Part shown: positions 9,413 to 32,475 of the stretch, piece by piece | Layout: each line of letters opens with the position of its first letter | How positions within the stretch are numbered: position 1 is the stretch's first letter | From: Gallionellaceae bacterium | GTDB taxonomy: Bacteria; Pseudomonadota; Gammaproteobacteria; Burkholderiales; Gallionellaceae | DNA: 34,317 bases | Direction: 5' to 3' | Assembly: GCA_003151655.1 (NCBI GenBank) | Contig: PLYB01000275.1 | Span: 1-34,317 of the forward strand | Notes under the pieces: model-generated | What the model was told of the DNA's origin: nothing | Seen by the model: the letters and a program-made list of their open reading frames with translations, nothing else | Databases searched by the model: none | Program-made: the position numbers and the translations under genes

Positions 9413-9736
9413 ATGATCAATCTGACCCCCAACGCAATCTCTGCTGTAGAGAAATTCATTAAAGGCTCTGCCACCCCCGTAGCCGGGCTGCGCATCGCGA
9501 TTTCCGGTGGCGGTTGCTCCGGTTTTCAATATGGTATGTCGCTGGAAGAGGCCAAGAGCGAAGACGACACGGTGCTGGAGTATGGCGCGGTGACGCTGCT
9601 GGTTGATCCTTTGTCAGCTCCTTTGCTGGAAGGCGTGACGGTCGATTTCGTGGATAGCCTGAACGGCAGCGGTTTCAAATTCGACAACCCGAATGCCAGC
9701 GCCAGTTGCGCTTGCGGTTCATCTTTCTCGGCTTAA
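9413..9736 (+). CDS. nif-associated IscA/HesB-type iron-sulfur assembly protein
   Basis: A-type carrier with GGGCSGFQYG and C-terminal CACGSSF motif; immediately precedes nifU. Confidence 0.93.
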   Translation: MINLTPNAISAVEKFIKGSATPVAGLRIAISGGGCSGFQYGMSLEEAKSEDDTVLEYGAVTLLVDPLSAPLLEGVTVDFVDSLNGSGFKFDNPNASASCACGSSFSA

Positions 9737-9750
9737 TTTAGGAGCGCGCC

Positions 9751-10638
9751 ATGTGGGACTACTCGGACAAAGTTAAAGAACACTTTTTTCAACCGCGCAA
9801 TGCCGGTGTGCTGGAAGGCGCTAACGGTGTGGGCGATGTTGGCTCGATCAGTTGCGGTGATGCGTTGCGCTTGATGCTCAAGGTAGAGCCGGAAACCGAC
9901 ATTATTCTCGCCGCGCATTTTCAGACTTTCGGTTGCGGCTCGGCCATCGCGTCTTCTTCCGCGCTCACCGAAATGATCAAGGGCAAGACGCTGGATGAAG
10001 CGTTGAAGGTAAGCAATCAGGACATCGCCGATTATCTAGACGGTCTGCCGCCGGAAAAGATGCACTGCTCGGTGATGGGGCGCGAAGCGTTGCAAGCGGC
10101 GGTCGCCAACTATCGCGGCGAAGTGTGGAGCGACGATCACGAAGAAGGTGCGCTGGTGTGCAAATGTTTTGCCATTGATGCGGTGCTGATCGAAGACACC
10201 ATTCGCGCCAATAATTTGTCGTCAGTGCAGGACGTAACCAATTACACCAAGGCGGGCGGAGGCTGTTCTTCCTGCCACGAAGGTATCGAAGAAATATTGG
10301 TGAAGGTGATGACCGAGCGCGGCGACAGCTTTAATCCCGGCGCGCAACCGAAAGAAGCGGCAGCGCCTGTCGGGATGACCAATTTGCAACGCATCCGCAG
10401 GATTGAGGCGGTACTGGACTCAGTGCGTCCGCAACTAAAGCGCGATGGCGGCGATATCGAGCTGGTGGATGTGGAGGGCAAGACTATCTACGTCAATATG
10501 ACCGGTGCTTGTGCCGGTTGCCAGATGGAAGCGATGACGTTGCAAGGCATTCAACAAAAACTGATGGAAGAGCTGAAAGAATTCATCAAGATTGTGCCGA
10601 CCAAAGTGAGTTCACTGACACGGGCAATGAAGGGCTAA
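9751..10638 (+). CDS. nifU: NifU Fe-S cluster scaffold
   Basis: N-terminal IscU-like domain, central bfd-like [2Fe-2S] domain, C-terminal Nfu domain (CAGCQ). Confidence 0.97.
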
Positions 10639-10646
10639 AGATTTAC

Positions 10647-10729
10647 GTAGGATGGGTTGAGCGCAGCGATACCCATCAATCTGCAAATGATCACAAACGA
10701 TGGGTATCGCTGCGCTCCACCCATCCTAC
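10647..10729. repeat. Paired inverted REP element between nifU and nifS
   Basis: 31-nt arms GTAGGATGGGTTGAGCGCAGCGATACCCATC (10647-10677) and its reverse complement (10699-10729) with one mismatch. Confidence 0.9.
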
Positions 10730-10766
10730 ATTGTCAATTTAATTGAAGTGACAAAAGGACATCAAC

Positions 10767-11975
10767 ATGACTGCCATCTATTTTGATAACAACGCAACCA
10801 CGCGGGTAGATCCCGCTGTGGTGGAAGCCATGCTGCCGTATTTCACCGAGCAGTTCGGCAATCCGTCATCGATGCACAGCTTCGGCAACAAGGTCGGGCT
10901 GGCGATTAAAAAAGCGCGTATGCAAGTACAAGAGTTGCTTGGCGCGGAGCATGACTCCGAAATTATTTTCACTTCCTGCGGCACGGAGTCGGATTCGACT
11001 GCGCTGATCTCCGCGTTGAAGGCGCAACCGGAACGCAAAGAGATCATCACCACTACCGTCGAACATCCGGCAATTCTTACCCTGTGTACGCATCTGGAAA
11101 AAGACGGCTACAAAGTGCATCTGCTCAAGGTCGATGGCAAAGGTCGTCTTGATCTGGACGAATACAAAAAGCTGCTCACCGATCAAGTTGCCGTGGTGTC
11201 GGTGATGTGGGCGAACAACGAGACCGGCACATTTTTTCCGGTGGTCGAAATGGCCGAACTGGCGCATGCCGCCGGTGCGATGTTTCATACCGATGCCGTG
11301 CAAGCTGTGGGTAAAGTGCCGCTGAATTTGAAAGACACCAAGATCGACATGTTGTCCGTGTCCGGTCACAAGCTGCATGCACCTAAAGGCATCGGCGTGT
11401 TGTATCTCAAGCGCGGTACCAGATTCCGTCCGCTGCTACGCGGCGGTCATCAGGAGCGGGGCCGCCGTGCAGGTACCGAGAACACGACTTCGATTGTTGG
11501 TCTGGGCAAAGCGGCCGAGATGGCGATGGAAGCGATGGCTTTCGAGAATACCGAAGTAGCGCGTCTGCGCAATAAACTGGAAGCCGCTATTCTTGCCAAA
11601 GTGCCGCGTTCTTTTGTCACCGGCAACCCGGATAACCGTTTGCCGAATACCAGCAACATCGCATTCGAGTTCATCGAAGGCGAAGCGATTTTGTTGCTGC
11701 TGAATAAATTTGGTATCGCGGCAAGCTCCGGTTCTGCTTGTACTTCAGGCTCATTGGAGCCGTCGCATGTGATGCGTGCCATGGGCATTCCATACACTGC
11801 CGCTCACGGCACGGTGCGCTTTTCACTCTCACGTTACAGCACAGAAGCCGAAGTGGATCGCGTGATTCAAGTCGTGCCGGAAATCATCGCGCAACTGCGC
11901 AAGCTGTCGCCGTATTGGGATGGCGACGGCCCTGCGGCGGAACCGGAAAAAGCGTTCGCGCCGACTTACGCATAA
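10767..11975 (+). CDS. nifS: Cysteine desulfurase NifS
   Basis: [18 protein letters not shown]..., PLP lysine motif [24 protein letters not shown]. Confidence 0.97.
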
Positions 11976-11985
11976 GGCTATCGCC

Positions 11986-13131
11986 ATGTCCCGCACAATC
12001 ATTATCGACGACACCACCCTGCGCGACGGCGAACAGACCGCCGGGGTGGCGTTTACGCTGGAAGAGAAGTTGGCTATCGCACGCCAGCTCGACGCGATGG
12101 GCGTGCCGGAGTTGGAGGTGGGTGTTCCGGCGATGGGACATGATGAACGCGAAAGTATCAATGCGGTTGCGGCACTGGATTTGAAAGCGAAGCTCATTGT
12201 ATGGTGCCGCATGTGTCAGGCCGATCTCGCCTTATGCGAGCAACTCGACGTACACATGGTTGATCTCTCTATTCCCGTTTCTGATATTCACCTCGACAAA
12301 AAATTGAAGCGTGATCGCGAATGGGTTATAGAAACTATATATGACGTGGTGCTACGTGCGCATGATTTCGGCCTGGACGTGATCGTCGGCTGCGAAGATG
12401 CTTCGCGTGCCGATCCGGAATTTATGTTGCGCGTTGTCGAAGCCGCGCAGATGTGCGGCGCACGCCGCATTCGTTATGCCGACACGCTCGGTGTGATGGA
12501 ACCGTTCGGTGTACATAAGGCTATTTCTGCTTTGCGCGGTGCGACGGACATGGAGATCGAAATGCACGCGCATGATGACTTCGGTCTCGCCACGGCCAAT
12601 AGCCTCGCTGCCGCAGTCGCCGGAGCAACGCACATCAACACTACGGTAAATGGTCTGGGTGAACGCGCGGGCAACGCGGCGCTGGAAGAAGTCACTATCG
12701 GCCTGAAAAAACTTTACAGCATGGATACCGGCATTGATCTGTCGCATTTTCCGGCATTGTCAAAATTAGTCGCGACGGCCTCTGGGCATCCCGTGCCCTG
12801 GCAGAAGAGTCTGGTGGGCGAAGGCGTATTCACGCATGAGGCGGGCATTCATGTCGATGGTTTACTCAAGGATTTGGACACCTATCAAGGTTTCGATCCG
12901 GTCGAAGTCGGTCGCCACCATAAGCTGGTGGTCGGTAAACATTCAGGTACTCACGGCATTATTGCCGCCTATTCCACCATGGGGCTTTCACTGAGCCAGG
13001 CTGAAGCGCGCGCACTGATGCCGGACATCCGCACTTTCGCCGAGCGCGCCAAACGTTCTCCAGCCGACCAAGAGTTGTTGTTTCTTTATCAACGCTACAT
13101 CGGGCGCACCCAGCCCGGTGCAGCGTACTAG
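11986..13131 (+). CDS. nifV: Homocitrate synthase NifV
   Basis: [23 protein letters not shown]...; start corrected from ORF-track 11920 to ATG 11986, just after the nifS stop. Confidence 0.96.
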
Positions 13132-13140
13132 GAATTCATC

Positions 13141-13923
13141 ATGGACAACGTGATGATTGCAGAAAACGTGATGCTCAAACCGGCACAACCCTCCCTGCTG
13201 AAGCTTTTGCGTGAAGACGTGAGCTGCGTCTTCACGCGTGACCCAGCCGCCCGTTCGCGCTTTGAAGTGCTGACTACCTATCCCGGCGTGCACGCCATCC
13301 TGCTGCAACGCATTGCACATCGCCTGTGGAAATTTGGACTGCGTTATTTGGCGCGATTGCTTTCCTGGTTTGCGCGCTTTATCACCAACATCGATATTCA
13401 TCCGGGCGCGACCATCGGACGGCGTTTTTTTATCGATCATGGTGCCGGCGTGGTGATCGGCGAGACAGCCGAAATCGGCGACGACGTGACGCTGTATCAC
13501 GGTGTCACCCTCGGCGGTACGACATGGAACAAAGGTAAGCGTCACCCGACTCTTGCCGATGGTGTGGTGGTCGGCGCGGGCGCAAAGATATTGGGCGCGA
13601 TCACGCTGGGTAAAAACGTGCGCGTCGGTGCAAATTCGGTGGTGGTCAAAGATGTGCCTGCCGAGCGCACGGTAGTCGGCATTCCCGCCAAAATCGTGCT
13701 GCGCACCGAGGATGCCAACGCCGAGAATATTTACGGCATCAACCTCGATCATCATCTGATTCCAGATCCGGTAGGGCGCGCCATCGCCTGTTTGATGGAA
13801 CGCATCGAAGTGTTGGAAGGACAATTACGCAAACAGGGCGAAGCGGTGAACGGGCAATGCCGCACTTGCGACGCGGATGATTTGTGCGGCACGGAAGTCG
13901 CGCGCGTTATCAGGAAAGCATGA
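13141..13923 (+). CDS. cysE: Serine O-acetyltransferase (nif-associated CysE)
   Basis: Left-handed beta-helix CysE signature [43 protein letters not shown]. Confidence 0.96.
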
Positions 13924-13924
13924 T

Positions 13925-14458
13925 ATGGATCTGCTTGATTTTGAACAAGCCGAGTTGTATTTCGATGAGCCGATCAGTGAGGAGGTCGAGCACTTGGTTG
14001 CTATGGCGGCAGCGAATTACGGTAATGAAGATGCCGAGTTGATGTTGTTGCGCGCCAATTTTATCGCCCCTCAGCATCTCGTCGTGCTGGTTGCATTGTA
14101 TCGCTACTATTTTTACCAGCATCGTCTGGAAGACGCGCTGCTGGTGGCCGAAAGCACTTTGGCCGTGGTCGGTCGCCGACTCGAGTTTCCCGATACCTGG
14201 CGCTACTTGCGTGAGGCCAACGTCGGCGAAGGTGTGATGCGCTCGATGGGATTGGTGCGCTTCTATCTCATGCTGCTAAAGGCGACTGGATACATCCATC
14301 TGCGTCTGGGCCAGTTTGCAACCGGAAAAGCAATGCTGGAAAAATTAGTGGAACTGGATAGCCATGATCGCATCGGCGGCAAAGCTTTACTGGATGTGTT
14401 GCATCAATCGATGATTAACGAAATAAATGCGGAAAGGAATCCGAAATGGACGAACTGA
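13925..14458 (+). CDS. Uncharacterised nif-operon helical/TPR-like protein
   Basis: ORF with ATG at 13925 directly after cysE, overlapping nifW start by 13 nt; helical repeat-like, no family recognised with certainty. Confidence 0.8.
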   Translation: MDLLDFEQAELYFDEPISEEVEHLVAMAAANYGNEDAELMLLRANFIAPQHLVVLVALYRYYFYQHRLEDALLVAESTLAVVGRRLEFPDTWRYLREANVGEGVMRSMGLVRFYLMLLKATGYIHLRLGQFATGKAMLEKLVELDSHDRIGGKALLDVLHQSMINEINAERNPKWTN

Positions 14459-14778
14459 CATTAGACGAAGCGTTGGAGGAATTAGTCTCCGCTGAAGATT
14501 TTCTGGAGTATTTCGGTATTGAGTACGAGCGCTCGGTGGTGCAAGTGAACCGGCTGCATATTTTGCAACGCTTCCATAATTACCTTGGCAAGGAGAGCCA
14601 GCCCGAGGGGGATGATGCGCGCCGCGCGCTGCATGCCAAACTATTGCAGCAGGCCTATCAGGATTTTGTGAAGTCCGATGCGCTGACGGAAAAAGTTTTC
14701 AAAGTATTCCACATGCACGAACCGAAAACCCATTTCGTGCCGTTGACTTCGATCACGGTGAATAAAGCGGGTTCGTGA
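14446..14778 (+). CDS. nifW: Nitrogenase-stabilizing/protective protein NifW
   Basis: LEELVSAEDFLEYFGIEYERSVVQVNRLHILQRFHNYL typical of NifW. Confidence 0.93.
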   Translation: MDELTLDEALEELVSAEDFLEYFGIEYERSVVQVNRLHILQRFHNYLGKESQPEGDDARRALHAKLLQQAYQDFVKSDALTEKVFKVFHMHEPKTHFVPLTSITVNKAGS

Positions 14779-14795
14779 TGAATGCGATTGCTCTT

Positions 14796-14878
14796 ACCCC
14801 CATCCCAGCCTTCCCCCCTGAGAGGGGGAAGGAGTTTAGTTCCCTCCCCCTCTCAGGGGGAGGGCTAGGGAGGGGGTG
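14796..14878. repeat. REP-like C/G-rich inverted repeat pair between nifW and nifZ
   Basis: CCCCCATCCCAGCCTTCCCCCCTGAGAGGGGGAAGG ... CCCTCCCCCTCTCAGGGGGAGGGCTAGGGAGGGGGTG. Confidence 0.85.
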
Positions 14879-14914
14879 AATCTTTGATGGACACAGACAA
14901 CCAAGGAATTCCCC

Positions 14915-15391
14915 ATGCTGCCTAAATACGAATTCGGCGATGAAGTGCGCATCATCCGCAATGTGCGCAACGACGGCACTTATCCTGGTGTGGCCACCGG
15001 CACGCTACTCATCCGGCGCGGCTCCACCGGCTTTGTGACGAACGTAGGCACTTTCTTGCAAGACCAGTTAATCTACTCGGTCAACTTTCTTGAGCAAAAC
15101 AAGATCGTCGGCTTTCGCGAAGAAGAACTGATCAGCATCGACGAACCATGGGTGCCCAGTAAATTTGAAAGCCGCGAAAAAGTTCGCAGCAAGATTACTT
15201 TGACCGTGCGTGGTGAAGTGCGGGTTACGCCCGGAATGGAAGGCGAGATACTGAAAGTATTTCGCGATGAAAATGAGGGGGTGCAATACCACGTGATTTT
15301 TCACGATCAAGTTTTGCAAGTCCCCGAGGCTTCTTTGGAGGCAACCCGTGTCTACGATGATGAGGAGAAAAGCAATGCCGCAAGTCATTGA
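14915..15391 (+). CDS. nifZ: NifZ family protein
   Basis: MLPKYEFGDEVRIIRNVRNDGTYPGVATGTLLIRRGSTGFVTNVGTFLQDQLIYSVNFLE. Confidence 0.94.
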   Translation: MLPKYEFGDEVRIIRNVRNDGTYPGVATGTLLIRRGSTGFVTNVGTFLQDQLIYSVNFLEQNKIVGFREEELISIDEPWVPSKFESREKVRSKITLTVRGEVRVTPGMEGEILKVFRDENEGVQYHVIFHDQVLQVPEASLEATRVYDDEEKSNAASH

Positions 15392-16223
15392 ATCCGGCGT
15401 GGCCTACCTTGCGCTCAAGGCCGCGCAAAAACTTTACAGCAAAGCTCCCGCCGCTTTGCAACCGGACGAATTCGAGCGTGTGCAAAAAATGGCGCAGCAA
15501 CAACACAAACTCGAAGCTCGTGTGCTGGTCACACCGGAGGCGCGCGATGTGATGGTGCCGCCATCGACGATAGAGCTTGCCATGCAAGAGATACGCGGAC
15601 GCTATCCGAACGAAGAAGAGTTCATTGCTGATCTGTCGCGTAACGGGCTGGATGAAGCGAGCTTTGCCATCGCGCTGGAGCGCGAATTGAAAGTCGAAGC
15701 CATTCTGGAAAAAGTCGGCACGCAGGCAGCTAAAATAACTGACATGGATGTGGAGTTATATTACCAATACCATCCCGAACAATTTCGTCGCCCAGAGACG
15801 CGATTGGCGCGCCACATTCTGATCACTATCAATGAATCCATCGTAGACAATACGCGTGCGGTTGCGAGTGAGCGTATCACCGCCATTGCGGCACGGCTGC
15901 TCAAAGAGCCGCAGCGTTTCGAAGAGCAAGCGCTAAAGCATTCAGAATGCCCTACCGCGTTGGATGGCGGAAAATTGGGCGACCTGCCACGCGGTAAACT
16001 TTTCCCGGAACTGGACAAAGCTTTATTCGAGTTGAAATCAGGCGAAGTGAGCGGAGTGCTGGAATCTGAGCTGGGTTTTCACGTGTTGCGTTGTGATGCC
16101 ATCACCGAAGCGAGCGTGTTGAGTCTCGATCAGGCACGTCCGCATATCCGCAAGCTGATGGAACAGAAACGCAAACGCGTTTGCCAGCAGGCTTGGATCA
16201 AAGGATTGTTGGAGAGCAAGTAG
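15375..16223 (+). CDS. nifM: NifM parvulin-type peptidyl-prolyl isomerase
   Basis: MPQVIESGVAYLALKAAQKLYSKAP..., C-terminal parvulin/rotamase domain (ARHILITINES, GGKLGDLPRGKLFPELDKALFELKSGEVSGVLESELGFHVLR). Start ATG 15375 overlaps nifZ. Confidence 0.93.
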   Translation: MPQVIESGVAYLALKAAQKLYSKAPAALQPDEFERVQKMAQQQHKLEARVLVTPEARDVMVPPSTIELAMQEIRGRYPNEEEFIADLSRNGLDEASFAIALERELKVEAILEKVGTQAAKITDMDVELYYQYHPEQFRRPETRLARHILITINESIVDNTRAVASERITAIAARLLKEPQRFEEQALKHSECPTALDGGKLGDLPRGKLFPELDKALFELKSGEVSGVLESELGFHVLRCDAITEASVLSLDQARPHIRKLMEQKRKRVCQQAWIKGLLESK

Positions 16224-16347: not shown

Positions 16348-16430
16348 CGTTCGCTATAAAAGATGCGGTGCGATTGTTCAACCCTAGCTCACCTCCGCAA
16401 GCGATTGCAGACCCCCAAAAAAACATTCCC

Positions 16431-16460
16431 TTGACGGAATTATTCCATAAGGGGCATACT
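16431..16460 (+). promoter_or_regulatory. Putative sigma70 promoter/operator of the higBA-like module
   Basis: TTGACG-N18-CATACT just before ATG 16467; near-palindrome GGAATTATTCC inside the spacer. Confidence 0.4.
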
Positions 16461-16466
16461 TGTTCA

Positions 16467-16835
16467 ATGAAAAAATGGGATGTTGAATACACGGACGAAT
16501 TCGAGGATTGGTGGAATCAACTTTCCGAAGACGAACAAGAATCAGTTGGAGCATCCGTGGGGTTGCTGGAAGAGTGTGGCCCAAACCTGCGCTTCCCTCA
16601 TAGCAGTGGGATAACAACATCCAGGCACGATCACATGAGGGAGTTACGGACGCAGCACGAGGGGCATCCCTACAGAACACTTTATGCTTTCGACCCAAGG
16701 AGAGCCGCAATATTACTGATTGGTGGCGAGAAAACTGGTAATGACCGATGGTATGAAGAGTTTGTGCCGGTTGCTGACGCTCTCTATGATGACCACTTGG
16801 ATGAATTAAGAAAGGAAGGGCTGAACGATGGCTAA
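16467..16835 (+). CDS. HigB/RelE-like (phage Gp49-like) toxin
   Basis: MKKWDVEYTDEFEDWWNQLSEDEQESVGASVGLLEECGPNLRFPHSSGI...MRELRTQHEGHPYRTLYAFDPRRAAILLIGGEKTGNDRWYEEF. Start corrected from 16368. Confidence 0.88.
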   Translation: MKKWDVEYTDEFEDWWNQLSEDEQESVGASVGLLEECGPNLRFPHSSGITTSRHDHMRELRTQHEGHPYRTLYAFDPRRAAILLIGGEKTGNDRWYEEFVPVADALYDDHLDELRKEGLNDG

Positions 16836-17160
16836 AAAATTTACAGAATTGCGCGCAAAAATGTCTCCAGAATCCAAAGCTCGCGCCGAAGAAAAAACAA
16901 GATTAATGCTGGAGGAAATGCCGCTGAATGAGCTACGTCAAGCGCGTGGCTTGTCTCAAGCTACATTGGCTAAAGTACTCAACGTTCAGCAACCCTCGAT
17001 TGCGAAACTGGAACACCGGGCGGACATGTACATCTCAACCTTGCGGAGCCATATTGAAGCCATGGGCGGCATGCTGGAGATTGTTGCGCGCTTTCCAGAT
17101 GGCAGTGTGAAAATTAACAATTTCGAGAGCCTAGACGAAAACAAAAAAGCAGCTGCATAA
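16828..17160 (+). CDS. HigA-like XRE/HTH antitoxin
   Basis: MPLNELRQARGLSQATLAKVLNVQQPSIAKLEHRADMYISTLRSHIEAMGG; overlaps the toxin gene. Confidence 0.9.
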   Translation: MAKKFTELRAKMSPESKARAEEKTRLMLEEMPLNELRQARGLSQATLAKVLNVQQPSIAKLEHRADMYISTLRSHIEAMGGMLEIVARFPDGSVKINNFESLDENKKAAA

Positions 17161-17430: not shown

Positions 17431-19053
17431 ATGCGCACATCAACGCTGCATTATCTGTTTGGTATTGTCATTGCCGTCTTCTGTCTGAGTGCCATTCCCC
17501 AACAATCTCAGGCTGCCAACAAGGGAGTAAACAAAGGATTCCAGCAAGCAGAGAAAGAGCGTCTCGTTCTGATGCCGCTACGAGTGCCTGACGAAGACAA
17601 GAATCTTACCGGTGCAATGGAGACCGCTTTAGTTAAAGGGCTGCAACAGAAGTACGATGTTTATTCTGGCGAACAAGTTTCGCAAAAGGCGCATGAGATA
17701 TTCATGAAGGAATCGCGCAACACAGCGCATAAGGAATGTGACGAAACGAAATGTATGCAGAACATCGCCATGGCATTTCAAGCAGAATTGATTGCGACAG
17801 CTAATGTTACCAAACAAGATGGAATCTACTTTTTGGCGCTGAGCATTCAGAATATCTTTGATAATAAAGTGGTGGATTCAGAATCGTTGCCTTGCAAAAA
17901 TTGTGATGCAGCTCAAGTGATTGATAAGCTGAAAGAGCTCGTTGGTATTTCATCTCAGGAAGCGACTGATAGCGCAGTTGAGAGGGCAGCGGCTGCAGGA
18001 AAGATAAAGCTGCAGCAACTTCAACAAGCTCAAACAGATCGAGAGCAAGCCATGCGGAATGCAGACGCTGATGAAAGAAAGCGCCTTCAAGCAGCCAAAG
18101 TTCGTGACGATGAAGAAATTGCTAAATTAAAGGCGGAAGCTGATACTCGTAAAAATAGTCACGCAGTCCAAAATCGTAAAGACTACCCCACCATCCAATC
18201 TGCTGCGGATGAAATTAAACAGTTAAATGATCGCATTAGTAACATTGAGGTGGGATACCAAAAGGAAGTAGATCGGATACGCTCGCAAATAAGCCATCGT
18301 TATGACTTACAGCTTGATACATTGAACAAAGAAACTGCTGGTGAGTTTGAAAAGCCACAAGAGTTCAATGCAAGACAGCAAGAACGTCGTAATGAATTGA
18401 AACGCCAGCACGATAATGAAAAAATCCCAACAGTCACTGATCTTGCCTCCGGTGAAACTGAGCCAATTCGCAAATTTATTCATGATTTGCAAGAAACAGA
18501 ATATGTGCTAGGGGCAGAAAGCCTTGTGGCGACAATTGGGCAGTACGATTCTATTTCTCAAAAGTTTCCAATTCACATCCACAGCAATATCCCCTCAGTT
18601 AACTTGGATCTGGATGCAAGTATTCCGCTTCCCATTGAGAATGCAAAATTGTATAAACCGCAGTGGCAAGCTGGTTTGGTTCGTATAGAAGCTACGGTAA
18701 AGCCTGGTGGGAGTCCATTTTCTATGGCATTAGTGAACGATGTGGACAACTCAAGATTGAGTTTTGCTAATGGGGCTTTCATGTCGGTATCTGATCGAGA
18801 GAAATTCGATCACGATGAAGCAGAACGTAAAGCGGCGGCTCAAAGATCATGGGCTGAGCAACAAGCAAAGCAAAACCAAAAATTAGGTACTGATAAAACT
18901 AGGAATGTGACAAGCTATACGCTACTTTGGGCTGGTATCGCGACCGGTGCAAGTGGAAATCTTCCTGTATCTTTAGTTTGCTTTGTTGCTTCATATTTTT
19001 TGGCTACAGATCAAGCTAGAGATGACTTCTTTAAAGACATGAGAAATCATTAG
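17431..19053 (+). CDS. Exported coiled-coil protein with C-terminal hydrophobic segment, function unknown
   Basis: Signal-peptide-like N-terminus (MRTSTLHYLFGIVIAVFCLSAIPQQSQA), Lys/Glu/Gln-rich coiled coil, hydrophobic segment SLVCFVASYFLA. Confidence 0.75.
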   Translation: MRTSTLHYLFGIVIAVFCLSAIPQQSQAANKGVNKGFQQAEKERLVLMPLRVPDEDKNLTGAMETALVKGLQQKYDVYSGEQVSQKAHEIFMKESRNTAHKECDETKCMQNIAMAFQAELIATANVTKQDGIYFLALSIQNIFDNKVVDSESLPCKNCDAAQVIDKLKELVGISSQEATDSAVERAAAAGKIKLQQLQQAQTDREQAMRNADADERKRLQAAKVRDDEEIAKLKAEADTRKNSHAVQNRKDYPTIQSAADEIKQLNDRISNIEVGYQKEVDRIRSQISHRYDLQLDTLNKETAGEFEKPQEFNARQQERRNELKRQHDNEKIPTVTDLASGETEPIRKFIHDLQETEYVLGAESLVATIGQYDSISQKFPIHIHSNIPSVNLDLDASIPLPIENAKLYKPQWQAGLVRIEATVKPGGSPFSMALVNDVDNSRLSFANGAFMSVSDREKFDHDEAERKAAAQRSWAEQQAKQNQKLGTDKTRNVTSYTLLWAGIATGASGNLPVSLVCFVASYFLATDQARDDFFKDMRNH

Positions 19054-19391: not shown

Positions 19392-19454
19392 AAAAGTATC
19401 TAGATATTATTTCATGAATATCTAGATATTCGGTGTGTGTATCTAGATACTTTT
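19392..19454 (+). promoter_or_regulatory. Triple palindromic operator/UAS array (TATCTAGATA x3)
   Basis: TATCTAGATA at 19397-19406, 19419-19428, 19440-19449 (22 and 21 bp pitch). Middle copy extends to 16-bp perfect palindrome GAATATCTAGATATTC; outer flanks AAAAGTATCTAGATA / TATCTAGATACTTTT. Confidence 0.8.
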
Positions 19455-19502: not shown

Positions 19503-19518
19503 TGGCATTAATCTTGCC
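19503..19518 (+). promoter_or_regulatory. sigma54-type promoter for the sensor-CheW gene
   Basis: TGGCATTAATCTTGCC: TGGCA, exact GG-N10-GC spacing, TTGC -12. Confidence 0.75.
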
Positions 19519-19558
19519 CTCTTCTTGGGATTGGATTCAATTATCCGGAGGGGGTGAT

Positions 19559-22192
19559 ATGGGCGCATACGAGGGGATAGATGTCGATCAGGATTTGCTT
19601 GGACTGATCCGGATGATGGGCAAGGCGGAGGAATACCGCGAACGTTTGCAAACCTTGCAGTCGGTATGGGACAACCTGACGTTGCTCGGGCATCTTTCCG
19701 GTACGGCCACGGATATGTCCGATACCCGCACGGCTTTTCAGCAGTTGAGCAGCAGTTTGCTTAACCAACTCGGCCGCGAGACGTTGAAAAAGGCTACGCT
19801 GGCAATGAAGTCCAAGGCACAAGTGGCCGTGGACATCATGGTGCGCAATTTATTCGAGCGCACCGCCGACATCGGTTTTCTGGCGATGGACGACGATGTG
19901 CGCGAATACCTGTCCAAATTTGCGCCGCTTAAATCACGGGTGGTTGGCGAAGAGGCGCGCTTGGAGTTAGAGAAATACGATGCCAATCTGCTGGCGCGGT
20001 TCCGCGAGTACGTGCAAAAATATTCGGTGTACGCCAACATCATGCTGTTGGATACCGAGGGTAATGTACTGCTGCAATTGGATGAAAATAATCCGGTAAG
20101 TCATTCTTGTGATGCGCTGATCGCACAGTCGTTAACGAGCTCGCAAGCGTATGTCGAAACCTTCCGGCATAGCGACTTGCTGCCCAAGGAAGCCAATAGC
20201 CTGATTTATTCTTATCGCGTGACCGATGCCGAGGGACAGGAAAATCTCGGTGTGTTGTGTCTGAGTTTTCGTTTTGATAATGAGGCAGCGCGGATATTCT
20301 CCAATCTGGTTGAAGCGGAAGAATGGAGTGTGGTCACTTTGCTCGATCAAAATGGTACGGTCATTGCCAGCAGCGATACTTTCCATGTTCCGGTTGGAGC
20401 GAGCGTCGGCTATCAGTTGGGGCGTGATTGGAGCGTGACGCGATTTGCCGGAAGGCAATATCTGGCCGTTACGCGCGCCACCCAGGGTTATCAGGGCTAC
20501 ATGGGGCCGGGCTGGTATGGGCATGTGATGTTGCCGCTGGATCACGCTTTTGATCAGGAAGCAGGGCGTATGCTGGAAGCGGATATTCCGGAAAGTGCGC
20601 TAGAAGCGGTGATGAGCAATTCGAAATTGTTTAGCGAAGCATTGCGTGAAATACCTTTTCAGGCGGCCAGAATTCAACGCGCGTTAAATCGCTCGGTATG
20701 GAACGGTAATGTCAGCCAGAGCAGCGACAGCAAGGCACTGAATCCCGCATTCTCCAAAATATTATTATGGGAAATCAGTAATACCGGGCTGAAGACACAG
20801 GATGTCTTTGACCAGTCGATCAGCAATCTGCATCAGACCGTCGTATCGAGTATTTTGCAGGATAGCCAGTTTCAGGCGGCTTTGGCTATCGACATCATGG
20901 ATCGCAATTTGTATGAGCGTGCCAATGATGTGCGCTGGTGGGCACTCTCTTCGGTGTTTCGTCGGGCATTGTCTAATGCGGAGCCGGATGCGGCTGCGTT
21001 GCATGAAATTGCCAATACGCTGGAGCATATCAACGGGCTCTATACCGTGTACGATAATCTGGTGGTGTTTGATCGCAGTGGTCGCGCGCTGGCAGTGTCC
21101 AATCCCAGGTATCAGGAGTATTGCGGACAAGTGCTGGATGAAGAATGGGTACGCCGCACTTTGTCGCTGGGCGATAGCCAGAGCTACGCGGTTTCCGATT
21201 TTGTAGCCAGCCCGTTGTATCAGGGCAAACATACCTACATCTATGCCGCAGCGATCCGCGATCAGTCGGCGAGCCAGAGTGTGGTCGGCGGTATCGGCAT
21301 CGTGTTTGATTCTGCCCCCCAGTTTATGGCGATGCTGAATGATGCGCTGCCGCGCGACGAAAAAAGCGCGGTGCCTGCGGGCTGCTTTGCAGTATTCGTT
21401 GACCGCGAGCATCGCATCATCGCCTCGACATTGGACGAACTTCCTCCCGGAACACAGTTGGAATTGGAAGATACTTATTTCCGTATTGCTACTGGCGAAA
21501 GAAAATCCGGCATTGCTGAATTTAACGGAAATTACTACGCAGTCGGCGCATGCATGTCCAACGGCTACCGGGAATACAAAGGCGCTGGCGATGCGTACCG
21601 CAACGATGTCATCGCGCTGATATTCACTCCCTTGGGTGAATGCAACAAAGATGGCCGCCGGGGACACGCAAGTTCAAGGGGGCGGCTACGCAGTGCAGAG
21701 ATTAAAGCGGCTGGCGATAGCGAATGCATGGAGATCGCGACTTTTTATGTGGATAGTCATTGGCTGGGGATTTCGACTGAGTACGTGGTCGAATCTATCG
21801 ATATCAAAGGACTCACCGGTGTCCCCGGTGCCGGTGAAAACTTGCTCGGTTACATCATGTTCCGCGATAGCCTGATCTCGGTGGTCGGGTTATGGGGCAT
21901 GCTGGGCAAGGAAGACAAACGGCATAGTAACCACGAAAAGCAGATCGTCGTTTTGCGTTTGGGAGGCGAAAGCGATGCGCTGGTTGGTGTGATGGTGGAT
22001 GAATTGGGTGAAATTCCCGAGATCCCTTTGGAAAGAATTGAGAAGGTTTCGCCGATGCTTAGCGCGGGTAATCTGTTGGCGGATAGCTTGGTTAAACCCA
22101 GTGCCGGAAAAAGCTCGCGTGAAATGATCGTGGTGCTTTCGCCGGAAAGATTAAGACGAAAATTTACCAATTTCGCTGAAAAACAACCCTGA
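19559..22192 (+). CDS. Double sensor (Cache-like repeat) protein with C-terminal CheW-like domain
   Basis: Start ATG 19559 preceded by GGAGGGGGTGAT. Two related modules (AQVAVDIMVRNLFERTADIGFLAMDDDVREYLS / FQAALAIDIMDRNLYERANDVRWWALSSVFRRALS). C-terminal CheW-like EIATFYVDSHWLGISTEYVVESIDIKGLTGVPGAGENLLGYIMFRDSLISVVGL. No obvious TM segment. Confidence 0.8.
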   Translation: MGAYEGIDVDQDLLGLIRMMGKAEEYRERLQTLQSVWDNLTLLGHLSGTATDMSDTRTAFQQLSSSLLNQLGRETLKKATLAMKSKAQVAVDIMVRNLFERTADIGFLAMDDDVREYLSKFAPLKSRVVGEEARLELEKYDANLLARFREYVQKYSVYANIMLLDTEGNVLLQLDENNPVSHSCDALIAQSLTSSQAYVETFRHSDLLPKEANSLIYSYRVTDAEGQENLGVLCLSFRFDNEAARIFSNLVEAEEWSVVTLLDQNGTVIASSDTFHVPVGASVGYQLGRDWSVTRFAGRQYLAVTRATQGYQGYMGPGWYGHVMLPLDHAFDQEAGRMLEADIPESALEAVMSNSKLFSEALREIPFQAARIQRALNRSVWNGNVSQSSDSKALNPAFSKILLWEISNTGLKTQDVFDQSISNLHQTVVSSILQDSQFQAALAIDIMDRNLYERANDVRWWALSSVFRRALSNAEPDAAALHEIANTLEHINGLYTVYDNLVVFDRSGRALAVSNPRYQEYCGQVLDEEWVRRTLSLGDSQSYAVSDFVASPLYQGKHTYIYAAAIRDQSASQSVVGGIGIVFDSAPQFMAMLNDALPRDEKSAVPAGCFAVFVDREHRIIASTLDELPPGTQLELEDTYFRIATGERKSGIAEFNGNYYAVGACMSNGYREYKGAGDAYRNDVIALIFTPLGECNKDGRRGHASSRGRLRSAEIKAAGDSECMEIATFYVDSHWLGISTEYVVESIDIKGLTGVPGAGENLLGYIMFRDSLISVVGLWGMLGKEDKRHSNHEKQIVVLRLGGESDALVGVMVDELGEIPEIPLERIEKVSPMLSAGNLLADSLVKPSAGKSSREMIVVLSPERLRRKFTNFAEKQP

Positions 22193-22223: not shown

Positions 22224-23114
22224 TCAGACTGATTGGTCGGTGATGCGAATCAGCGCCTGTGCCTGAATTGCGCAGGCACGGCTGGTATTGGCATCCAGGC
22301 CCTTCAACCATTTTTCTGGTATCTCATCCAGACCATACAGCGCACCGGCCAGCATTCCCGCAATTGCGCCGGTGGTGTCGGCATCGCCGCCGCGATTGAC
22401 CACGTCAATCAGGCAGTCGCGAAAATCATCGGTATCGAAAAAACTTTGGAACACCGCTTGCAGTGTATCCGCGACATAGCCGCTGGGGTTGCTGCTCTGG
22501 CGCACCGCGCGGAATTTGAATTCAGGGTGTCGTGCCGCGAGCGGGTGGGCGTGGGTGTGGAGCAGGTGATTTTTATCGGCTCCGCGTAGTGCGTCTTGCA
22601 CCATGAATACCAGACATTCGCAGGCGGCATCGGAAAGTGTGCAGTGATGAGTAACGTGAGCTTGTGCGCGAGATGCTGCGCGCACACCTTCTTCCGGCTG
22701 ACCAAAAGTGGCGAGAGCCACGGGCAATACGCGCATCGCGGCACCGTTACCCGCATCGTGATCGGAGTAGGGGGCTTCCGGATTACCTGTCTTGCGGAAT
22801 TGCAGTAAATTCCTCCGTACAGTGTTGCCTATGTCTACCGGTTTTGCGCGCATCCAACCATCGAATGCCTGTGCTGCCGCGAGAGCATCCACTTTATGAT
22901 GAGCTAGGATGGAGTTGCCGAGCGCGAGTGACATGGTGGTATCGTCGGTAACGTGTCCAGGCTTGAGGTGCAGCCAGCCACCTCCGCACAGGGTATCGTG
23001 TGTACCGTATTGCTCCGCGATCTCGCGCGGTGTCATGAATTCAACCGTCGAGCCGAGTGCATCACCAATGGCGAGGCCAAGGTAAGCGGCGATAGCGCGG
23101 TCATTTAGAGTCAT
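22224..23114 (-). CDS. draG: ADP-ribosyl-[dinitrogen reductase] glycohydrolase DraG
   Basis: YLGLAIGDALGSTVEFMTPREI, HVTDDTTMSLALG, NRGGDADTTGAIAGMLAGALYG typical of DraG. Confidence 0.92.
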   Translation of the reverse strand: MTLNDRAIAAYLGLAIGDALGSTVEFMTPREIAEQYGTHDTLCGGGWLHLKPGHVTDDTTMSLALGNSILAHHKVDALAAAQAFDGWMRAKPVDIGNTVRRNLLQFRKTGNPEAPYSDHDAGNGAAMRVLPVALATFGQPEEGVRAASRAQAHVTHHCTLSDAACECLVFMVQDALRGADKNHLLHTHAHPLAARHPEFKFRAVRQSSNPSGYVADTLQAVFQSFFDTDDFRDCLIDVVNRGGDADTTGAIAGMLAGALYGLDEIPEKWLKGLDANTSRACAIQAQALIRITDQSV

Positions 23115-23133
23115 TGAATATCCAAAAGTACAT

Positions 23134-23246
23134 CGTCATTCCCGCGCAGGCGGGAATCCAGCCAATCAAACAACTCCGGCGAAGCCGGACAAAACCCAAC
23201 TGCATATTTAATACAGCACTGGATTCCCGCCTGCGCGGGAATGACG
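23134..23246. repeat. 113-bp mini-element with perfect 28-bp terminal inverted repeats
   Basis: CGTCATTCCCGCGCAGGCGGGAATCCAG (23134-23161) and its exact reverse complement (23219-23246); inner CCGGCGAAGCCGG hairpin. Confidence 0.93.
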
Positions 23247-23253
23247 TGAAGGG

Positions 23254-23835
23254 TCACTCCTCCGGCCCGAAACAGGTCAGATAATCCGCACAATACTCAC
23301 AAGTCGGCGCACGACAGGCATTGATACCTTCGCGTTCGCACAACTGCTTGTAGAGGAATTTTTTCCATTTCATATCGTGCTCGTTCTTTGCTGCAAGCGA
23401 AGGGAAGTTTTCTGTCATCAGGCGACTGAGGTAGTCGCGCGAGCGTAGTCCGAGGTCTTGCCACAAGTGGTCGCTTGCCATGCATGCGGTAGTGACGATC
23501 TCTGCCATCCATTGTTCCGACATATTGTTGTAGGCGCGGTGTTCGAGCAGTAGCGCGAGCACATCGTCGCGTTCCAATGCGCGCGGGTCAGCGAGGTTGC
23601 CTATATTACGGATGGCCAGTGTGACTCTTGGGAAATGGCGCGCCAGTAGCGTGGAAAAATCTTTTTCATTCAAGCCTAGCCCGGGCGGTAATGCGCCCAC
23701 ACCTGACATTTGGCTGGAAATCATTTGTGCGAACAACTCATCATTCGGCAACCCGGCGGCATGCGCCATCAGTTCTGCATACAGAGTGTTGGGCTGTATT
23801 GGAGATTGCTGTTTGAACATGATATCGGGTTGCAT
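23254..23835 (-). CDS. nifQ: NifQ molybdenum-trafficking protein
   Basis: C-terminal C-x4-C-x2-C-x5-C motif (CRAPTCEYCADYLTC); position in nifB operon. The alternative first ATG at 23835 may be too far upstream; ATG (MFKQQS) at ~23820 also possible. Confidence 0.92.
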   Translation of the reverse strand: MQPDIMFKQQSPIQPNTLYAELMAHAAGLPNDELFAQMISSQMSGVGALPPGLGLNEKDFSTLLARHFPRVTLAIRNIGNLADPRALERDDVLALLLEHRAYNNMSEQWMAEIVTTACMASDHLWQDLGLRSRDYLSRLMTENFPSLAAKNEHDMKWKKFLYKQLCEREGINACRAPTCEYCADYLTCFGPEE

Positions 23836-23842
23836 GATGTTG

Positions 23843-24202
23843 TTACTTGCTCGGATATTCGATCAGCAAGTCTTCGTCGCGCAATACCATCTGGCAGGCC
23901 AAGCGCCATTCGGTAGTGATGACATCGTTCACCTTCATGGCATCAATTTGTGCTTGAGTGATCTTGCCTGAAGCTTTGAGTACGCTGATCTCGCGGTCGG
24001 TGAGTGGTCCCGCCATCGGGCCTTTATTGGAAAGATTGGTGACTTTTACCAGACAAGTCGAACATTCACCGTTCTCGCAGCCGAAGTCGATGGGGATATG
24101 GTTTTCTTTGGCGAGCGCCAGAATAGTTTTCTTGTGGCTACCGGCCACGGCATACACGGTTTTGTCTTTATGCAGCGGGCTGGAAAAAGTGATGTTAGGC
24201 AT
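23843..24202 (-). CDS. [2Fe-2S] protein resembling Azotobacter FeSII (Shethna) nitrogenase-protective protein
   Basis: MPNITFSSPLHKDKTVYAVAGSHKKTILALAKENHIPIDFGCENGECSTCLVKVTNLSN...LTDREISVLKASGKI...WRLACQMVLRDEDLLIEY. Confidence 0.8.
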   Translation of the reverse strand: MPNITFSSPLHKDKTVYAVAGSHKKTILALAKENHIPIDFGCENGECSTCLVKVTNLSNKGPMAGPLTDREISVLKASGKITQAQIDAMKVNDVITTEWRLACQMVLRDEDLLIEYPSK

Positions 24203-24235
24203 TGCGGTTACTCCTGTCGTTGAGATGAGAAATTG

Positions 24236-25019
<784 letters not shown>

Positions 25020-25031
25020 AATCTGCGATTC

Positions 25032-25286
25032 CTAGGCGGCCAGTTTCAGTAAAGGGATGCCGGTGAGTGAGCCGGGCGGATTGAGCGGCACGCCATCTTC
25101 ATTGAGAATTGCGCCTTCGATCGGGCAAATCGTGGCGCATTGCGGGTCGGCAAAATCGCTCGCGCATTCTGTGCATTTACTCGTGTCGATCAGAAAATGC
25201 GGCTTCGCTTCGTAGATCGCTTTGCTCGGACACAGCGGTTCACACGCCCAACAATTGACGCAGGATTCGATAATTTCAAGTGCCAT
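25032..25286 (-). CDS. fdxN: 2[4Fe-4S] ferredoxin (FdxN-like)
   Basis: CVNCWACEPLCP and CTECASDFADPQCATICP; directly downstream of nifB. Confidence 0.9.
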   Translation of the reverse strand: MALEIIESCVNCWACEPLCPSKAIYEAKPHFLIDTSKCTECASDFADPQCATICPIEGAILNEDGVPLNPPGSLTGIPLLKLAA

Positions 25287-25309
25287 GATCGTGTTCCTTG
25301 TTTAAATTT

Positions 25310-25340
25310 GTAGGTCGGGCTTTAGCCCGACCCGACCTAC
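25310..25340. repeat. REP palindrome overlapping the nifB stop codon
   Basis: GTAGGTCGGGCTTTAGCCCGACCCGACCTAC; the nifB TAG (25337-25339, minus) lies inside the right arm. Confidence 0.85.
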
Positions 25341-26842
25341 GCTACTTTCTGTTGCTCAGTTACTTTAACTTCCAACTTACCCGCAATTCGCATCTCTTCG
25401 TACACCGCAACGATGGCATCCTCGATGGCTTCCATCGCGTGTTCTCCGTTGGGCCGGATACCTGCTGCCTCCAGCGGCCCCCAAGGTTCGTAACCGACCT
25501 TGCTGCACAGCACCGCTTCGCAACCAGCCAGCACTTTCAGCGTTTTATCCAACACGCTTTCGCCGTCACCGCAGGTGTCGCCGCCTTCACAATAAGGCGT
25601 GGTCTTGCGGTGCCCAATGAAGCGCACGCCGGAAGATGAAGCTTCGTAGATCAGGAATTCACCCGCATGACCGAAGTGTTCGTTGATGAGGCCGCCCCCT
25701 TTGGTGGCGATTGCCATCAGCACCGGACGTGTCTCTATTTTCGGTTTGATGCTCTGAATGCTGACCAGTTGCGATTGCATTTCTTTGGCGAGACGTTTGC
25801 TCTCCAATTCTTCGTTGATGGCGGCATGCACCTCGGCGCGCATCTTCATCGCTTCGGGGTAATTGATCTCCATCGCCTCAATCTTGTCCATGGTGAACTC
25901 GGCACCGCGATCTTCTCCCAGCATGCCCACCGCATCGGCGCGACATTGGCGACAGTGGCGCATCATGTTCATGTCACCCGCACAGGCATCCTGCAACGTT
26001 TGCAACTCTTCGTTGGTCGGGCCGCGCTGCCCGGTCAGTCCGTAGTAAGTACCGTGCTCGGCTTCGGAAATGAGCGGCATCACGTTGTGCAGGAAAGCGC
26101 CCTTGGCTTTGACGATCTTCGAAACCTCTTGCAAATGTTTGTCGTTCACGCCGGGGATCAATACCGAATTCACTTTGACCAGAATGCCCTTGGCAACCAG
26201 CATCTCCAAGCCCCTCTGTTGTTGCTCGATGAGAATGGCAGATGCTTCGCGTCCCTTAATGCGTTTGTTTTTCCAGAATATCCACGGATAGATTTGTGCG
26301 CCCACATCGGGATCAACACAGTTGATGGTGATGGTGACATGGTCGATGTTGTACTTCGACAACTCCTCGATATGCTCGGGTAGCGACAAGCCGTTGGTGG
26401 AGACGCATAACTTTATATCCGGTGCCTGCTCGGAGAGCATACGGAACGTTGCAAACGTGCGCTCCGGATTCGCCAATGGATCGCCGGGGCCGGCAATACC
26501 CAGCACCGTCATTTGTGGAATAGTCGCGGCCACGGCCAGCACCTTTTTCACCGCTTGCACCGGATGATGCAATTCGGAAACCACGCCTGGACGCGATTCG
26601 TTGGCACAGTCGTATTTGCGATTGCAATAATTACACTGGATGTTGCAGGCCGGAGCGACCGCCACATGCATGCGCGCAAAGTAGTGATGCGCTTCTTCGG
26701 AATAACACGGATGGTTGAATACCTTCTGGCGAATATGCTCCGGCAAGTGGCTCATCTGATCGTTGGTCGTACCGCATGATCCGGCGGAACATCCTCCCGA
26801 CGAAGTGTCGGCTACTGGGTTGTTGATGACGGGTAATTGCAC
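25337..26842 (-). CDS. nifB: Nitrogenase FeMo-co biosynthesis radical SAM protein NifB (with C-terminal NifX-like domain)
   Basis: Radical SAM CNIQCNYCNRKYDC; C-terminal MAIATKGGGLINEHFGHAGEF. Start reassigned to GTG 26842 (AGCGGAGG-N5-GTG) because the ATG at 26887 lies within the sigma54 promoter. Confidence 0.96.
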   Translation of the reverse strand: MQLPVINNPVADTSSGGCSAGSCGTTNDQMSHLPEHIRQKVFNHPCYSEEAHHYFARMHVAVAPACNIQCNYCNRKYDCANESRPGVVSELHHPVQAVKKVLAVAATIPQMTVLGIAGPGDPLANPERTFATFRMLSEQAPDIKLCVSTNGLSLPEHIEELSKYNIDHVTITINCVDPDVGAQIYPWIFWKNKRIKGREASAILIEQQQRGLEMLVAKGILVKVNSVLIPGVNDKHLQEVSKIVKAKGAFLHNVMPLISEAEHGTYYGLTGQRGPTNEELQTLQDACAGDMNMMRHCRQCRADAVGMLGEDRGAEFTMDKIEAMEINYPEAMKMRAEVHAAINEELESKRLAKEMQSQLVSIQSIKPKIETRPVLMAIATKGGGLINEHFGHAGEFLIYEASSSGVRFIGHRKTTPYCEGGDTCGDGESVLDKTLKVLAGCEAVLCSKVGYEPWGPLEAAGIRPNGEHAMEAIEDAIVAVYEEMRIAGKLEVKVTEQQKVA

Positions 26843-26876
26843 GTTGTATCCTCCGCTAGGGTTTGCCTGTATATGA

Positions 26877-26891
26877 GCAAGCGGCATGCCT
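26877..26891 (-). promoter_or_regulatory. sigma54 promoter of nifB operon
   Basis: Minus strand AGGCATGCCGCTTGC: GG-N10-GC spacing, TTGCT -12; one mismatch at the first T of TGGC. Confidence 0.75.
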
Positions 26892-27241: not shown

Positions 27242-27514
27242 ATGGAATTTGAGGACAATCCCGTTAAAGCGGCACAGAACTTCAAGAAGCATAAAATCAG
27301 CTTCGAGGAAGCGGGGTCGGTATTTGGCGACCCCATGGCCTATACGTTTGCTGATCCGGATCATTCCATTGCCGAGGCACGCTGGCTGATGTTCGGCCTG
27401 TCCCGGATGGAAAGACTTCTTGCCGTCATTTATACTGAGCGCAACGGTAAAGTTCGTTTAATCAGTGCGCGGCTTGCGACTAAACATGAACGGAGTATTT
27501 ATGAAGAAGACTGA
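27242..27514 (+). CDS. brnT: BrnT-family (DUF497) toxin
   Basis: MEFEDNPVKAAQNFKKHKISFEEAGSVFGDPMAYTFADPDHS...RLLAVIYTERNGKVRLISARLATKHERSIYEE. Confidence 0.92.
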   Translation: MEFEDNPVKAAQNFKKHKISFEEAGSVFGDPMAYTFADPDHSIAEARWLMFGLSRMERLLAVIYTERNGKVRLISARLATKHERSIYEED

Positions 27515-27910: not shown

Positions 27911-28193
27911 TTATATTTGGCGTACTTTGATATTTAGCGTTTGGATACGATAAGCGATCTGGCGTGGTGTCATGTCGAGCAAACGCGCAGCTTTGGCTTG
28001 TACCCAGCCAGCCTGCTCCAACGCAGCAATGACTTTTTCGCGTTCATCGAGATTGGGATCGCCGAGGTCGAGATTTTGGATGGTTCCCCGGCTGGCTGAA
28101 ATCTTTCGGTAAGCAGAACTCCGTCGCGGTCAATCAGCGAGCCCTCGGTCATGACTGAGGCGCGCTCCAGACAGTTTCCCCGTTCACGTACAT
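27911..28193 (-). pseudogene. nifA: Truncated, frameshifted duplicate of the nifA 3' end
   Basis: Aligned with 30922-31213 of intact nifA: same stop context and HTH C-terminus ([30 protein letters not shown]), a 10-nt deletion, 5' truncated at 28193. Confidence 0.92.
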
Positions 28194-28643
28194 TTACTTA
28201 CCGTCGTTTTCTGCATACATCAGTTGAACCATTCCCTCAACGATGCGAATGTCACGGGGCGAGAGCCGCACCAGTTTGTCCAGCAATGGAAAAATTCCTG
28301 CGTATTGCGCCAAGCCAGCATATTCTTTTCCCAATACCACCAAGCCAGTCTGCTGCGCGGACAACGGCGCGGTTGAGTCCACTTTTTCACTCGAACCGTA
28401 GCGCAGCCACTGCGCCGATACGCCTAACCAAGTCGCAAGTGCCAGTAACTTTGGTTGCGTAGGAACCGCTTCCGCGAGTAACCATTTCCTGACGGTTTGC
28501 GCGCTGACGGGTTGCCCGGAATAGTGCTGGTTAAACGTGCGCGCAATCTGCGTCGGACTGCCGATAGGCTGGCCTATTCGCTTAATCTCTTGCGTGAGCC
28601 GTTTGCTGAAGGCAATTCGTTGTTGTTCACTGTTCGTTTCCAT
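28194..28643 (-). CDS. HTH (XRE/phage-repressor-like) transcriptional regulator
   Basis: FSKRLTQEIKRIGQPIGSPTQIARTFNQHYSGQPVSAQTVRKWLLAEAVPTQPKLLALATWLGVSAQWLRYG. Likely start ATG 28643 (METNSEQQ). Confidence 0.8.
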   Translation of the reverse strand: METNSEQQRIAFSKRLTQEIKRIGQPIGSPTQIARTFNQHYSGQPVSAQTVRKWLLAEAVPTQPKLLALATWLGVSAQWLRYGSSEKVDSTAPLSAQQTGLVVLGKEYAGLAQYAGIFPLLDKLVRLSPRDIRIVEGMVQLMYAENDGK

Positions 28644-30921: not shown

Positions 30922-32475
30922 TTATATCTGCCGCACTTTAATATTCAACGTTTGAATACGATACGCAATCTGGCGTGGTGTCATGTCGAGCAAACGCGCA
31001 GCTTTGGCTTGCACCCAGCCTGCCTGCTCCAGCGCAGCGATGACTTTTTCGCGTTCATCGAGATTGGGATCGCCGAGGTCGAGATTTTGGATGGTTCCCC
31101 GGCTGGCTGAAATCTTCTCATCGATTCCGGTAAGCAAAACTCCATCGCGGTCAATCAGCGAGCCTTCGGTCATGACTGATGCGCGCTCCAGACAGTTTTC
31201 CAGTTCACGCACGTTGCCCGGCCAATCGTGGTGCATCAGCACGCGCAGTGCGGTATCGCTCAAGCTGAGAGTGCGACCTTGCTTGGTGCCGATCTTGCCC
31301 ACCAGAAAGCGTGCGATCTCGGGAATGTCTTCCATGCGTTCGCGCAAAGGCGGCAGAAATAACGGCATCACGTTGAGGCGATAGTACAAGTCCTCGCGAA
31401 ACTTTCCCGACTCCACTTCGGCTTCCAAATCGCGGTGGGTGGCGGCGACGACACGGACATCGACTTTTATAGTGCGCGTTCCGCCGACGCGTTCCAGCTC
31501 TCCCTCCTGCAACACGCGCAGTAATTTGGCCTGGAAAGATGCGGAAATTTCACCGATTTCATCGAGAAATACTGTGCCGCCCTCGGCTTGCTCAAAGCGT
31601 CCTTTGCGTTGTGCTACCGCGCCGGTGAAGGCACCTTTTTCGTGGCCGAACAATTCCGATTCAAGCAAGGTTTCCGGTAGCGCCGCGCAGTTGAGTTTGA
31701 CAAAACTGCCGCGCGCGCGCGGCGAGTTGTAGTGAATGGCGTTGGCGATCAGCTCTTTACCCGTTCCGGTCTCGCCGCGAATCAACACCGTGGTATTCCA
31801 CTTCGCCACCAGCCGCACTTGCTCGAAGATGCGGCGCATGGATTGGGTGTGTCCGATGATATTGTCGAAGCCGTATTGTCCGCGCACACTGCGCCGCAAC
31901 ACATCGCGCTCTTCGACGATCTCCATTTTTTCCTGTGCCACTTCATGAGACAGGCGCACGCTTTGTCCGATCAGATTGGCGACCATTTCCAGAAAGCGCT
32001 GGTACTCGTCGAGTTGTTTGGTGATGCCGGGAGCGGGTTGTGCGGCCAACACGCCGACTACCTTTTTCCCGATACGAATCGGCACCCCGACGAATGCGCC
32101 CTGCGGGTTGTAGATACCCATGCGGCTTAGAAAACGCGGTTCATCCATAATGCACTCGACCACGATGCTGTTGCCGCTCTTGAGAATGTTGCCGACTACA
32201 CCTTCGCCCGGCAGATAGCTCACTTCTTCGGTGACGGTGTCAGATACTCCATACACCAGCGATACCTGCAATTCCCCGCTGGCCGGGTCGATCAGGCTGA
32301 CCATGCCGCGATCAAGCGCCATCCCTTCGTGCAATGCGTGCAGAACGCCATCCAGTGTTTGTTTAAAGTTGAGCGAATGCGACAATACGCGGCTTACTTG
32401 ATACAGCGTTCCCAATTCCGCACGCAGCACATCAAGTTCCAATTCGGGCCATTTTTCCATGGGTGTATTAGACAT
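30922..32475 (-). CDS. nifA: Nif-specific sigma54 activator NifA
   Basis: N-terminal GAF, AAA+ with [15 protein letters not shown] and GAFTGA, C-terminal HTH. Confidence 0.97.

Follow-up and report, generated by a model that had tools for sequence, protein, structure and literature searches.

What does a protein that joins two sensor modules to a CheW-like domain do in the middle of a nitrogen fixation gene cluster? The question is raised by an open reading frame in a 34,317-nucleotide stretch of DNA from a Gallionellaceae bacterium (contig PLYB01000275.1), referred to below as the window. A first-pass annotation had proposed that the encoded protein may tie the nitrogen-fixing state to chemotaxis or to CheA activity, an inference that we take up below after considering the protein, its relatives and its upstream region.

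Domain organization of the fusion protein

The gene and its domains, all on the plus strand, are as follows.

19559-22192, plus strand: coding sequence of a soluble tandem-dCache–CheW fusion of 877 amino acids (ORF, Pfam, alignment, AlphaFold2, Foldseek)
19718-20548, plus strand: module 1, residues 54-330, a 56-residue helix (54-109) and a dCache fold, with motif RNLFERTADIGFLA (alignment, AlphaFold2, profile comparison)
20744-21640, plus strand: module 2, residues 396-694, a 66-residue helix (396-461) and a dCache fold, with motif RNLYERANDVRWWA (Pfam, AlphaFold2, profile comparison)
21722-22162, plus strand: CheW-like domain, residues 722-868, with MFRD at the NLRG position (Pfam, AlphaFold2, Foldseek, alignment)

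The motifs from which two related sensor modules had been proposed, VDIMVRNLFERTADIGFLA (residues 91-109) and IDIMDRNLYERANDVRWWA (residues 444-462), are both present. Pfam matches dCache_1 (PF02743) in two stretches of the protein (E 1.5e-15, 57.9 bits against a cut-off of 45), and comparison of the module 1 and module 2 profiles with hhalign (probability 99.5, E=2.5e-22, 266 columns) identifies the modules as homologous and the sensor unit, therefore, as a tandem duplication. Two sequences are near-invariant in 37 aligned homologues: RNLxERxADxGF (module 1) and DRNLYERxxDxRWWA (module 2). An AlphaFold2 model built on the alignment (pLDDT 83.1, pTM 0.75) contains the dCache fold with its long N-terminal helix, and Foldseek matched the Cache part to the dCache domains of DctB (3by9), Tlp3, CtaA and PctA in the PDB, so that the Cache-like folds anticipated by the first-pass annotation are seen in the predicted structure. 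The C-terminal domain is CheW-like, as had been claimed, with a Pfam match to CheW (PF01584) above the curated cut-off (E 3.2e-15, 56.4 bits against 23.5) and structural matches whose best include 2qdl and 2ch4.

The NLRG motif of CheW is a functionally important receptor contact. None of the 37 homologues carries it in our alignment; the fusion protein reads MFRD at this position and retains the Arg, as does about a third of the family, and LRG is kept in every row listed for the CheW paralogues of the host. It is these host proteins that carry the comparison, the E. coli and Thermotoga CheW sequences in the alignment serving as a guide only. Because the signature is lost, the usual receptor coupling is not to be assumed.

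No transmembrane segment is apparent in the fusion protein (maximum Kyte-Doolittle value of 1.46 over 19 residues), and an N-terminal hydrophobic stretch is absent from all 37 homologues (maximum 0.99). Hydropathy exceeds 1.6 somewhere in 12 of the 37; among the cases listed, the top peaks mostly fall in the final strand of Cache module 2, modelled as beta by AlphaFold2, and a missed transmembrane pair was ruled out on these grounds. The protein is likewise devoid of an MCP signalling hairpin, in agreement with the earlier description: a Pfam search found MCPsignal (PF00015) in none of the 37 homologues, and the MCP tip motif was not found in 72 rows. No Response_reg match was obtained in the 37 members, and neither a CxxCH heme motif nor an amino-acid-sensor motif was found in the 72 rows; no ligand motif was recognised. 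Cache modules had been described as normally extracytoplasmic, and a fusion without transmembrane segments as unusual. The first point stands as a tendency, since Cache domains are mainly extracellular (78% by prediction; PMC4822843), but an intracellular minority is documented, of which YkuI_C and Diacid_rec are examples (PMC4822843); a conserved cytoplasmic tandem Cache pair is thus unusual, though with precedent.

Distribution of the family and its nif-embedded clade

Relatives were sought in the genus and order of the host and across 84,980 scanned species genomes. This yielded 37 full-length homologues of 33-84% identity that align end to end, all of which match both dCache_1 (at E<=0.001) and CheW. 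Within the order, the fusion gene occurs in 50 of 399 genomes; outside it the family is rare, with four further occurrences among 321 genomes in the class. CheA, present in 286 of the 399 genomes, accompanies the fusion gene in 49 of the 50 carriers compared with 237 of the 349 other genomes (68%; p=5e-7, a value that ignores shared ancestry). The nifD gene, present in 57 of the 399, is found in 26 of the 50 carriers versus 31 of the 349 others (9%; p=4e-12), in 13/26 versus 14/133 when counted by genus (p=1.5e-5), and in 18 of 42 carriers outside the nif clade described below versus the same 31/349 (p=1e-7), all three p-values again ignoring shared ancestry. Since 24 of the 50 carriers have no nifD, the fusion protein is a member of a conserved family that is wider than nif. 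The host genome itself has 27 MCP-domain, 15 CheW-domain and three CheA matches.

In three gammaproteobacterial genomes the match spans the two Cache modules only, and stand-alone double-Cache ORFs, predicted to be soluble, were read in two of these (L194, 708 aa; L196, 674 aa), where they stop right after the second Cache module without a CheW domain. The existence of such Cache-only proteins makes CheW look like a removable output. In the literature searched on Cache, CheW and nif we found no account of a fusion of this kind, and this bacterial protein family is apparently undescribed so far, although the architecture may have been listed earlier.

The surroundings of the gene in the window are those of a nif cluster.

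9413-16223, plus strand: upstream nif genes, namely IscA-nif, nifU, nifS, nifV, cysE, nifW, nifZ and nifM (Pfam, ORF similarity)
22224-26887, minus strand: downstream genes for an ADP-ribosylglycohydrolase (DraG-like), nifQ, two 2Fe-2S ferredoxins, an ArsC-like protein and nifB (Pfam, ORF similarity)
30922-34045, minus strand: nifA (GAF-AAA-Fis HTH) and a nifL-like PAS kinase, a candidate activator system (ORF similarity)

The nif neighbours noted earlier are thus found on both sides of the fusion gene, and no che gene adjoins it in the window. Beyond the window the contig continues with rnf genes, nifHDK (nifD at C239:46910) and mod genes; of these, only nifD was scored with a profile, and we named rnf, mod and nifHK from reading the ORFs. 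We note several other features of this region. Between nifM and the fusion gene lies a Gp49-like/HTH pair that resembles a toxin-antitoxin system (16368-17160), and a small ORF within the nif region, at 27242-27514, reads like a putative BrnT toxin. A 540-aa protein with a signal-peptide-like sequence is encoded just upstream of the fusion gene (17431-19053); its paralogue (L115:1159-2295; 78% identity over 184 aa) lies at the opposite end of the nif region. On the minus strand at 27914-28105, a fragment matches the Fis-type helix-turn-helix at the C-terminus of the intact NifA (30922-32475) with identity over 64 residues, and an additional, weaker piece is found at 28063-28194; we read this as a partial nifA duplication, apparently a recent one.

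In a tree of the family, all 17 nif-embedded loci fall within one clade of 25 rows (SH-aLRT 93), most remaining members of which come from nifD-bearing genomes (Paludibacterium, Methylovulum and others), Steroidobacter and one MAG being the exceptions. The arrangement differs within the clade: in Gallionellaceae the fusion gene adjoins nifQ-nifB, in the Sulfuricella group it follows nifZ, and in two other groups it precedes nifE/nifN. In these relatives, nifZ and nifE/N were named from their similarity to proteins of the window and contig. Outside the clade, it is not found beside nif genes. The link between orthologues and nif proposed in the first-pass annotation is therefore real for one clade, and for nifD enrichment, but does not extend to the family as a whole. 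The exceptional MAG (L031, genome G743) holds the closest relative by identity (84%), the gene adjoining rnfE/rnfH-like and DraG-like genes; nifD was sought in this genome and not found, and the locus is possibly a decayed nif island or an assembly gap. In one Gallionellaceae-like assembly, the fusion gene is separated from the nif genes by a 549-aa ORF and by the gene of a 985-aa hybrid histidine kinase (L033:3929-8535), and a second copy of the fusion gene lies directly behind an apparent MCP end (L032).

Start site and upstream elements

Three elements precede the gene.

19397-19449, no strand assigned: the palindrome TATCTAGATA in three exact copies, spaced 22 and 21 nt, ahead of the promoter
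19503-19518, plus strand: sigma54 -24/-12 element TGGCATTAATCTTGCC (motif search and comparative enrichment)
19547-19554, plus strand: Shine-Dalgarno-like GGAGGGGG before ATG 19559 (sequence)

The putative ribosome-binding site ahead of ATG 19559 is strong. The element TGGCATTAATCTTGCC deviates from the sigma54 pattern at one position, and from its location transcription should start near 19530, which makes ATG 19559 the start codon. We discarded the upstream TTG at 19514 as a start codon, since it falls within the -12 element. A count of sigma54-like patterns over the whole window is at chance level (44 found, 44 expected); the site of the fusion gene owes its credibility to a comparative test across the family instead. 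Scored with a simple weight matrix of our own, a good site (>=13 of 15.3, within 250 nt upstream) precedes 41 of 74 family members versus 68 of 972 control genes drawn from these loci (7%; p=2e-24). The promoter suggested earlier is thus present and belongs to the family at large, but is not specific to nif: good sites are equally frequent in the nif clade (15/27) and in the rest (26/47), and sigma54 control was accordingly discarded as proof of a nif role.

NifA-type upstream activating sequences (UAS) are enriched only in the Gallionellaceae-like group to which the window belongs. The motif TGT-N10-ACA precedes the gene in six of seven such orthologues versus 7.5% of control genes (p=1.5e-6, a value that overstates the case because the orthologues are related). 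In five of them it lies 84-128 nt above the -24 element, and the UAS-like motif of the window itself is farther away than usual, at about 256 nt. The TATCTAGATA palindromes sit 54-106 nt above the -24 element, and their tandem, which looks like the operator of some regulator, is the sole one that a search of the genome found, so that no regulon could be defined. Among relatives, one exact copy occurs in locus L034, and degenerate forms occur there and in L031.

Possible roles and relation to known systems

The explanation that we favour, and to which we give about an even chance, is that the protein is a cytoplasmic sensor-adaptor that docks on CheA/CheW arrays and has come under nif control in one clade. 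The two Cache modules on their long helices would sense a small molecule or state inside the cell, the protein being probably dimeric, and the C-terminal domain would dock on the CheA/CheW ring in the chemosensory arrays of the host, altering kinase output when ligand-bound or when abundant. Transcription would be sigma54-dependent, a mode of control presumably inherited family-wide, to which nif control, perhaps through NifA, would have been added once, in the nif-embedded clade. Nitrogen-fixing cells would thereby add the fusion subunit and retune their taxis in response to oxygen, ammonium, energy or a metabolite. This reading draws on the near-restriction of the gene to CheA-bearing genomes, the domains and their folds, the duplication, the nif embedding in varying arrangements, the nifD enrichment among carriers, the sigma54 enrichment, the UAS, the MCP genes found next to some family members and the MCP, CheW and CheA complement of the host genome. 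Against it stand the lost NLRG signature, the lack of an adjacent che gene, the 24 of 50 carriers without nifD, the distance of the UAS-like motif and the failure to recognise a ligand motif.

Alternatively, though we find it rather doubtful, the CheW-like domain may serve only to dock on some other protein, for example a histidine kinase or an enzyme of cyclic-di-GMP turnover, with a role in attachment or metabolism and not in taxis. The loss of NLRG would fit, as would the neighbours of the gene: EAL (8) and GGDEF (5) are the commonest domains among 116 immediate neighbours, which also include MCP (4), none of the three being among the matches listed for 96 control genes five positions away, and histidine kinases directly adjoin the fusion gene in L058 and L033. 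The neighbour-domain enrichment is only suggestive, since the control list stops at 25 families and significance is lost under the least favourable assumption about the control genes (p=0.12). MCP genes adjoin the fusion gene in nif-linked Rhodocyclaceae. The CheA co-occurrence (49/50) argues against this alternative as well. An unlikely role is that of a sensor acting back on nitrogenase or nif regulation, for instance on NifL/NifA or on the DraG-like protein, without any part in taxis; the embedding of the gene in several differently ordered nif clusters and the excess of nifD among carriers are compatible with it, but half of the carriers lack nifD, and the CheW domain and its association with CheA would be left unexplained. 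That the gene is a decaying, functionless chemotaxis gene hitch-hiking in the nif island is very improbable, for despite several foreign or broken pieces in the nif region of the window the reading frame is intact in most of the Gallionellaceae-like nif group, with 74-84% identity, its promoter is conserved and the conservation of its motifs is very strong.

Cache is known mainly as an outside-facing sensor and CheW mainly as a coupler. If the sensor-adaptor explanation is correct, a cytoplasmic double Cache joined to CheW would allow a sensor to enter the chemosensory array without a receptor, and its recruitment into nif clusters would link nitrogen fixation directly to cell behaviour through a single gene. 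We tentatively raise the possibility of a new class of cytoplasmic input, in which a tandem Cache unit senses a metabolite, the fused CheW enters CheA arrays as a swappable sensor-adaptor, and nif switching in diazotrophs conveys nitrogenase status to taxis.

In layout, the fusion protein is analogous to CheV, a soluble protein in which a CheW-like adaptor domain is joined to its own input domain (PMC12691637, PMC4742279); the input of CheV is, however, a phosphorylatable receiver, whereas that of the fusion consists of two Cache modules, its CheW domain being C-terminal and diverged. With the dCache_1 chemoreceptors and kinases PctA, Tlp3 and DctB it shares the sensor fold (Pfam, Foldseek), but their modules lie outside the cell between two transmembrane helices (PMC4822843), which the fusion lacks; its module is moreover duplicated and its output is CheW in place of an MCP hairpin or a kinase. 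YkuI_C and Diacid_rec offer a precedent for cytoplasmic Cache domains (PMC4822843) but belong to other Cache families. The fold of its C-terminal domain is that of single-domain CheW (Foldseek 2qdl, 2ch4), to which the fusion adds a 720-residue sensory region and from which it differs in the loss of NLRG. Finally, the MCP genes mcpA and Aer have been reported in the nif cluster of fosmid DX-1A-14 (PMC3912193), another instance of chemotaxis genes within a nif cluster; these encode receptors, whereas the product of the gene described here would be a sensor-adaptor without a receptor hairpin.
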